Part shown: piece after piece, positions 7,893-44,662 of the stretch
Layout of the letters: each line of letters opens with the position of its first letter
How positions within the stretch are numbered: position 1 is the first letter of the stretch
From: Candidatus Poribacteria bacterium
GTDB lineage: Bacteria; Poribacteria; WGA-4E; WGA-3G
NCBI GenBank assembly: GCA_022825665.1
Contig: JAJDWI010000153.1
Location: 1 to 64,000, forward strand
Length of the DNA stretch: 64,000 nucleotides
Reading direction: 5' to 3'
Notes under the pieces: generated by a model
What the model was told of the DNA's origin: nothing
Database searches by the model: none
What the model saw: the letters and a program-made list of their open reading frames with translations, nothing else
Translations under genes and position numbers: made by a program

Positions 7893-7994
7893 GAGATGTA
7901 GAAAAATGGCAGAGCTATTTAGTTTTCGATTTTTTCTGATATATTTTTCATAATTCAATAAGACACTTTGTATGTTAGGTAGAGGCGTGCGACA

Positions 7995-8090
7995 CCCATA
8001 AGCGTCAATTTAAGAAGGAGATGCGTTGTAGCCGCGCAATTCATTGCGTCTCGGACATTCCGTAGGGGCGAGGTCGCCTCGCCCGCATGC
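7995..8090 (+). repeat. Intergenic repeat module D, copy 1
   Basis: Begins CCCATAAGCGTCAATTTAAG, passes through GCGCAATTCATTGCG and ends in the GC-rich hairpin GGGCGAGGTCGCCTCGCCC. The same sequence recurs in reverse at 38121-38212 and, without its CATAAGCG end, at about 41700-41750. Short fragments of the CATAAGCGTCAATTTA end also occur at 37939 and 41431-41475. Confidence 0.75.
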
Positions 8091-8093
8091 TTA

Positions 8094-8322
8094 TACCATT
8101 TCTATAGATTATTTTCTCATTTACGGTTATTATGGTTGTAATCTTTCAGGGCACAAACTAAATGAAGATTAATTTTTAAATTCGGTAATTTTATAGAAAG
8201 ATCCAGTGCGGTTAGGAAACCGCACCTACCGAATTTGGGAAAATTAGAATTACCGAAATATTTTATTAATCTTCATAAAGTTTGTGTTACAAAAAAAGAG
8301 ACATTATATGTTAGAAATAGTA
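8094..8322. mobile_element. MITE-like palindromic element, copy 1
   Basis: A 229-base imperfect palindrome with terminal inverted repeats TACCATTTCTA / TAGAAATAGTA, flanked on both sides by TTA. Nested inside are a second inverted pair (CACAAACT..ATGAAGATTAA and TTAATCTTCATAAAGTTTGTG), a third (TTCGGTAAT / ATTACCGAA) and a central hairpin GTGCGGTTAGGAAACCGCAC. It has no ORF. A second copy lies inverted at 44415-44634. Module D-F junctions elsewhere in the window lack the insert, which identifies it as a mobile insertion with a 3-base target duplication. Confidence 0.82.
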
Positions 8323-8333
8323 TTACATATAGT

Positions 8334-8370
8334 CCGGTAGGTCGGAGCGAGCAAAGCAACCTCCGACATG
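8334..8370 (+). repeat. Intergenic repeat module F, copy 1
   Basis: A hairpin-forming unit: GGTAGGTCGGAGCGAGC, then AAAGC and AACCTCCGACATG, so GTCGGAG pairs with CTCCGAC. Reverse-orientation relatives lie at 38062-38096 and 41651-41683. Confidence 0.65.
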
Positions 8371-8371
8371 G

Positions 8372-8554
8372 TGTCTGAACCAGGATTTACAGGATTATAG
8401 GATTCTCAGGATGCCTTTTATCAAAGGTCTCTTCTAACAATTGAAACAAAATCTATAATAGCAGATACAGAACAGTAGATACTTGGCAAGGAACGTGATT
8501 GTCGATACTCTTATCCTGAAAATCCTGTCCATCTTGCAAATCCTGGTTCAGACA
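8372..8554. repeat. Inverted pair of repeat module C (183 bases)
   Basis: Bounded by TGTCTGAACCAGGA and its reverse complement TCCTGGTTCAGACA, with further matching ...ACAGGAT / ATCCTG... sequence inside each arm. The same bounded arrangement occurs at 41499-41644, while single arms occur at 37811 and 38612. No coding capacity is seen. Confidence 0.75.
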
Positions 8555-8684
8555 AAAAACATACACACCATCAAAAACCTCCTACTTCCATGTCTTCCAT
8601 GCTCTCAGCGATTCAAACAATAACATACCCTCCGCGATTCAGACAGAAAATGGACAATTGAATGCCTCTGATGTACATAATGGT

Positions 8685-41327: not shown

Positions 41328-41856
41328 AGACTGAAGCTTGTGCTTGGTAGCAGTGATTTAAGGCTTTTTAGTTGAAGTATAAACCTTTCGCCCGCTGGGG
41401 CTTTGGGAGAGGGTGATAGGTGCTATACATATAGGTGTCAATTTAGTGCGTAACCATAAGCGTCAATTTAGTGATTCTTGTCTGTCTGAATTGCTTGTTG
41501 TCTGAACCAGGATTTTCAGGATTAGGAGTTGGTGACTATTTATATTCCGTTGTTAAGGATGAATGCTACCTTTTGGAAAAGAACATTGGCATATAAATCT
41601 CTTATTCTGCTAATCTTGTAATCCTGTAAATCTTGGTTCAGACATAATACATGTCGGAGGTCGCTTTGCTTGTTTCGACTTATGGGACTGTATGTGAGAT
41701 GACCTTGCCCCTACGGAATGTGAGAGGCGCAATGAATTGCGCGACTACGAACCAGAATGGTGTAAACATGTGCAAAAACATATCGTGTGTTAACTAACGT
41801 AGTACCTTGAGATAATATTTATCGTTATATATTTTGTTCTGATATGGACTGATTAG
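41328..41856. other. Gene-free repeat island 3
   Basis: No coding region is seen. It holds an E unit at 41381-41407, two tandem D-end fragments at 41431-41475, an inverted pair of module C at 41499-41644, module F at 41651-41683 and a truncated module D at about 41700-41750, all in the order opposite to island 1. Confidence 0.75.
41499..41644. repeat. Inverted pair of repeat module C (146 bases)
   Basis: Starts TGTCTGAACCAGGATTTTCAGG and ends with CCTGTAAATCTTGGTTCAGACA, its near reverse complement. Same plan as 8372-8554 but 37 bases shorter inside. Confidence 0.75.
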
Positions 41857-44363: not shown

Positions 44364-44414
44364 TTGACTCGTTAATTTAATGGTAAACGAAAACAATCAT
44401 TTTTACTATAGTTA

Positions 44415-44634
44415 TACCATTTCTAACATGTAATGTCTCTCTTTTGTAGCACAAACTTTATGAAGATTAATTCGGTAATTTCAACATTCCCAATCTCGGT
44501 AGGTGCGGTTTCCTAACCGCACCGGACTTTGATGTAATATTACCGAATCTATTTTTTAATCTTCATTTAGTTTGTGTCCCAAAGGATTACAACCATAAAA
44601 ACCGTAAATGAGACAATAATTTATAGAAATGGTA
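44415..44634. mobile_element. MITE-like palindromic element, copy 2
   Basis: A 220-base copy of the element at 8094-8322, in inverse orientation, with ends TACCATTTCTA and TAGAAATGGTA and flanking TTA on each side. Its central hairpin is GTGCGGTTTCCTAACCGCAC. It ends 28 bases before the tsaD start codon. No ORF of its own. Confidence 0.82.
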
Positions 44635-44662
44635 TTAGCTCTAAACACAGATAAATTGACTT

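Follow-up and report, generated by a model that had tools for sequence, protein, structure and literature searches.

Probable IS630-type MITEs of Candidatus Poribacteria duplicate a TNA target and carry a second MITE nested in their central palindrome

The systems closest to the one described here are small non-autonomous elements and insertion sequences (IS) of the IS630 family. RUP of Streptococcus pneumoniae is a MITE of IS630-Spn1, about 107 bp long and present in about 110 copies; it is AT-rich, has IS630-like ends and is presumed to be mobilised in trans, and the RUP literature also reports repeats inserted into one another (PMC2229807, PMC3049150). Correia elements (NEMIS) of Neisseria are IS630-type MITEs of about 107 or 155 bp with TA termini, for which evidence from filled and empty sites has been presented (PMC2229807, PMC2817692). 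ISHsp2 of Halomonas is an atypical IS of the same family, with HTH and DDE domains in two frames and a 4-bp TTAA target duplication instead of TA (PMC3606827).

The window (the whole analysed stretch of 64,000 nucleotides) contains two copies of a palindromic element resembling RUP in general features, namely its apparent IS630 type, size and copy number. RUP inserts at TA, whereas the Poribacteria element duplicates TNA and has other ends. Correia elements contain a 50-bp internal segment where a second MITE family is nested here, and their ends are unlike those of the Poribacteria element. The putative parent IS shares with ISHsp2 the family, the HTH and DDE domains in two frames and a target other than TA, with 3 bp of TNA here against 4 bp of TTAA in ISHsp2. 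REP/BIME palindromes are landing sites for other mobile elements, and the inner element described below is similar to REP/BIME-targeting IS in apparently using palindromes in this way; it differs from them in having terminal inverted repeats, an apparent IS630-type DDE parent and at least eight different palindromes as hosts. We consider it about 85% probable that copies 1 and 2 are non-autonomous MITEs of IS630 type which duplicate TNA and hold a nested second IS630-type MITE.

Copy 1, an outer MITE split by an inner one, spans positions 8094-8322 on the forward strand, with its left and right TTA duplications at 8091-8093 and 8323-8325. Copy 2 lies at 44415-44634 in the opposite orientation (reverse strand), is 83% identical to copy 1 and also carries the inner MITE; its TTA triplets, at 44412-44414 and 44635-44637, were delimited by comparison with the corresponding site of a sister genome. 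Both copies have the ends TACCATTTCTA ... TAGAAATRGTA, the right end of copy 1 being TAGAAATAGTA, with one mismatch. The copy 1 strand folds far better than its dinucleotide shuffles (z = -7.05, 0/200 shuffles as good). The original prediction of a palindromic MITE at 8094-8322, and of a second copy with like ends and flanks, was thus confirmed. The family has the features of a MITE, as it is short, non-coding, bounded by terminal inverted repeats, flanked by a target duplication and present in high copy number. The motif TWATACCATTTCTA occurs 99 times in the genome of the window against one occurrence in the control, and it was found in all 17 genomes of the same genus and in none of ten genomes of the same class outside the order. 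In a species collection searched with the end motif and the second box, 75 of the 80 listed loci belong to Candidatus Poribacteria, and the remaining five are, by our own estimate, close to chance expectation. An Rfam scan returned tRNAs only.

Further information about the target was obtained from the flanks of 159 elements with T-W-A on either side, at loci of this and related genomes. The flanks are TTA/TTA in 75 copies, TAA/TAA in 67 and mixed in 17, so that the two triplets are equal in 142 of 159 (Fisher p ~1.6e-25, with copies treated as independent). By hand count, about 31 of 33 motif pairs have equal flanks in the complete genome G009, and some copies show TGA on both sides. The target rule of the outer MITE is TNA (TTA, TAA and sometimes TGA), with a 3-bp duplication. 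A 3-base TTA duplication had been proposed from the window; the three bases and the element boundaries were borne out, and the restriction to TTA was not. The 17 mixed TACC elements, in which a TTA flank is paired with a TAA flank, exceed the expectation for simple mutation, other flank changes being few; recombination between copies or a mechanistic cause are possible.

At six insertion sites the target is seen to be one 3-base unit. The site orthologous to that of copy 2 is empty in the sister genome G002 (L149) and reads ACTATAGTTTGCAC against ACTATAGTTA-element-TTAGCTC in the window (in a longer readout, ACTATAGTTTGCACTACACACA against ACTATAGTTA-element-TTAGCTCTAAACACA), and the insertion points of L141, L038, L053, L285 and copy 1 align to empty homologues with one triplet. 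Another close species, G014, shows about 93% identity in the orthologous flanks. The D-F junction that holds copy 1 also exists without the element. Outside the window, element-free D-F copies read TTCTTACAT in L053 and GCTCACA in L138 and L051, so that a single TNA stands at the homologous junctions. Within the window, the empty D-F junctions described beforehand are indeed present, but they are weaker evidence than was stated: the one at about 41.7 kb, in a MITE-free homologous repeat (41604-41748, reverse strand), is a paralogous junction whose complement reads CTCACAT, with TCA and not TTA, while the one at about 38.1 kb reads CTTACAT in the complement and has a diverged spacer and a gapped alignment over the junction. 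The comparison of filled and empty sites, extended to the sister genome, gave pairs that align with one triplet.

The empty sites also bear on the possibility that the element is a canonical IS630/Tc1-type MITE, in which the duplication would be the terminal TA of TACC...GGTA and the outer TWA a mere preference. TA is the usual IS630 duplication (PMC3606827) and stands at the termini of most bacterial MITEs (PMC2229807). Such a model predicts empty sites of the form TWATATWA, however, and is contradicted because the observed ones consist of one TWA and nothing more; in 142 of 159 copies, moreover, both flanks share the middle base, beyond what a preference gives. We regard the TA model as very unlikely, and retain the TNA duplication.

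The nested arms and central hairpin of copy 1 had been read as an unusual feature of one element, and this did not hold: the palindrome of the window is two nested MITEs. The arms are those of a second MITE, which has been dispersed independently, has a separate core hairpin and here sits in the loop of the outer one. In alignment, the outer MITE without insert measures 112-113 bp, has TACCATTTCTA ends and a central palindrome CACAAACT-AAA-AGTTTGTG, and folds better than its shuffles (z = -3.32). The inner MITE, of about 113 bp with ends ATGAAGATTAA...TTAATCTTCAT, is inserted in that palindrome. It occupies 8163-8275 on the forward strand in copy 1, where it runs from TGAAGATTAA to TTAATCTTCA with the core hairpin GTGCGGTTAGGAAACCGCAC at 8206-8225, and 44461-44565 on the reverse strand in copy 2; other inner copies bear different core hairpins, for example GCGCGCTT.AAGCGCGC. 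Searches of the window's genome (G000; 170 contigs, 4.53 Mb) used the element, the end motif and the transposase families. The element search returned composite matches at both window copies and on contig C21, more than 20 places that match query positions 68-190 approximately and nothing else (the inner element alone), and three contigs (C103, C25 and C106) that match query 1-71 and 186-235 with nothing between, that is, outer copies without insert, which align on both sides of the insertion in copy 1.

These separate occurrences have to be weighed against the reading of copies 1 and 2 as one composite family of long, multi-level palindromes with a single origin and a function as a unit, for instance as an RNA hairpin or terminator. 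The fold is strong, and copies 1 and 2 and that on C21 hold the inner part at the identical place and orientation. Yet outer copies lacking the inner part exist, inner copies lie in at least eight different palindromes, and each of the two has its own transposase-bearing relative, so that we give a single composite origin hardly any credence. Under the preferred reading of two nested MITEs, co-movement of the composite is possible: outer and inner parts may have moved as one unit after nesting, or the inner MITE may have hit a favoured site more than once.

A likely clue to the origin of the inner MITE comes from another species, where an outer MITE with equal TAA flanks (L324) holds a full-length inner element at the same palindrome. 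This element has ends ATGAAGATTAATTTATTAATTCGGTAAT and encodes a 394-aa IS630-type transposase (178 bits), and is apparently the parent of the inner MITE. The placement of inner copies was studied in a strict set of 29, a looser set with two mismatches per end being mostly noise. In 20 of the 29 copies the flanks form a stem of 5 bp or more at a fixed 3/3 offset, compared with 0 of 699 mismatched flank pairs; these 20 cases are partly dependent on one another, as several of the host palindromes belong to repeat families. A 2-bp duplication model fits only 14 of the 29 (control 15%). The flanks of the outer MITE showed no such palindrome excess in a looser test. The nested hairpins are explained because the inner element sits at palindrome centres.

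We scanned the loci for distant end pairs and found in G009 (L299, 6408-7550) an IS of 1143 bp with ends TACCATTTTTA/TACCATTTCTA, enclosing an HTH frame and a DDE_3 frame. Protein search showed that G009 has four copies that are almost identical and that many members of the family have relatives, and IS with TACC ends occur in at least six genomes (G009, G006, G073, G023, G026, G033 and G002 are listed). Wherever both ends are readable they are TACC ends, and the ten undeleted copies measure 1142-1154 bp end to end. In G026 (L419) the transposase is intact, with 365 aa and 217 bits to NF033545, the NCBIfam IS630 model, whose cut-off is 100 bits. Scores of 217 and 214 bits to this model, the DDE_3 and HTH_32/HTH_29 domains and an acidic triad D, D, E in order (QDET, or EDES in G002; DNGRFH; NPIE) identify the enzyme as IS630-type. 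Between the second D and the E lie 31 residues in the outer group, against 60 for the inner-type protein. A sequence comparison with solved structures gave no match to the transposase. The search for a transposase with matching terminal repeats, which the original prediction had pointed to, thus led to an IS630-type element with TACC ends.

The TA dinucleotide duplication of the IS630 family was not found in this group. Flanks are equal in 9 of 11 parent IS copies (TTA, TAA and TGA, including TGA/TGA), and the same 3-bp TNA duplication appears in 142 of 159 TACC elements and at the empty sites. We therefore file the parent IS as a variant, with an IS630-type transposase and a non-canonical duplication; a narrow literature search with partial coverage returned no report of TNA duplication in the family. 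With the same ends and TNA flanks, the 1143-bp IS is likely the parent of the outer MITE. Similarity to the IS 3' end extends past the shared 11 bases in one arm of copy 1 (p <= 0.002); the other arm of the outer MITE agrees with the IS ends in the 11-bp core alone. Contigs C106 and C123 of the window's genome both start with an identical 138-bp IS 3' end followed by TTA; consequently, at least two parent IS copies are present there, broken by the assembly, in which contig-edge ends and no complete parent IS are visible. In the G009 IS, nine consecutive A (L299, 6926-6934) mark the junction between the HTH frame and the DDE frame, a two-frame layout that could be a programmed frameshift or decay.

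Other candidate parents were rejected. The transposase genes of L061 and L300 lie between TACC ends and belong to other insertion sequences with their own ends, located inside TACC MITEs (L061 987-2595 on contig C101 of G000, ends ATAGGTGTCAACTT; L300 1002-2513 in G009, ends AATACCTTCGCCAA). Occurrences of TTATACCATAGCTG near transposase genes are coding sequence, and singleton TACC ends stand mostly beside ordinary genes. On contig C93 of G000 (L139, 1069-2754), an oxidoreductase-like gene lies between two TACC ends with TAA on either side, so that the gene may be a passenger that was mobilised, or the two ends may be paired by chance. Three-base duplications are known in the IS5 group, and some IS5 subgroups duplicate TNA. 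These genomes do contain IS4/IS5-type elements, including the two within TACC MITEs. An IS5- or IS4-type transposase could be imagined to move the outer MITE, the IS630-type element having the same ends through convergence or because it inserted into MITEs. Nevertheless, L061 and L300 have terminal repeats of their own, none of the DDE_Tnp_1, DDE_Tnp_4 and DUF4096 loci examined (the G009 copies being covered in part) is bounded by TACCATTTCTA or places an IS5-type transposase between MITE ends, and the IS630-type copies are exactly bounded and near-constant in length in several genomes. An IS5- or IS4-type mover is thus highly improbable, and an IS630-type parent is preferred.

The island that hosts copy 1 (island 1, window 7906-8670) has no counterpart at the orthologous position of G002. 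Its limits are CAGAGCTATTTAG...AATGCCTCTG ends together with imperfect direct repeats of 13-14 bp (ATGTAGAAAAATGG / ATGTACATAATGG), so the island itself looks like a separate mobile unit. In L073 (G000 C115:34774-35235 region), a frame-broken DDE_Tnp_4 transposase is accompanied by ends similar to those of island 1 (CAGAGGCATTCAGTT / AATTTAATGCCTCTG), an element that is a possible parent of the islands.

We hypothesize that the HTH and DDE_3 transposase of the 1143-bp IS, if active, cuts the outer MITE at its TACCATTTCTA ends in trans, and that the MITE would be pasted at T-N-A with duplication of those 3 bases, by a 3-base stagger. The transposase of the second IS630-type element would likewise act in trans on the inner MITE and insert it at palindrome centres. 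The CACAAACT/AGTTTGTG palindrome of the outer MITE would thereby serve as a landing pad, producing nested hairpins. What the inner lineage recognises is perhaps no sequence but the structure, a hairpin or cruciform.

In summary, we lean slightly towards the view that two diverged lineages of IS630 type with changed target rules live in Poribacteria, one using TNA with a 3-bp stagger and the other palindrome centres, and that palindromic MITEs act as landing pads on which nested palindromes accrue. Textbooks present the IS630/Tc1/mariner transposases as the TA-specific DDE enzymes, and a natural group that duplicates TNA and includes an intact copy offers direct access to what determines target step and stagger. 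The palindrome-centre element could sense extruded hairpins in nature, and its way of landing would explain the accumulation of layered palindromic repeats in these bacteria.
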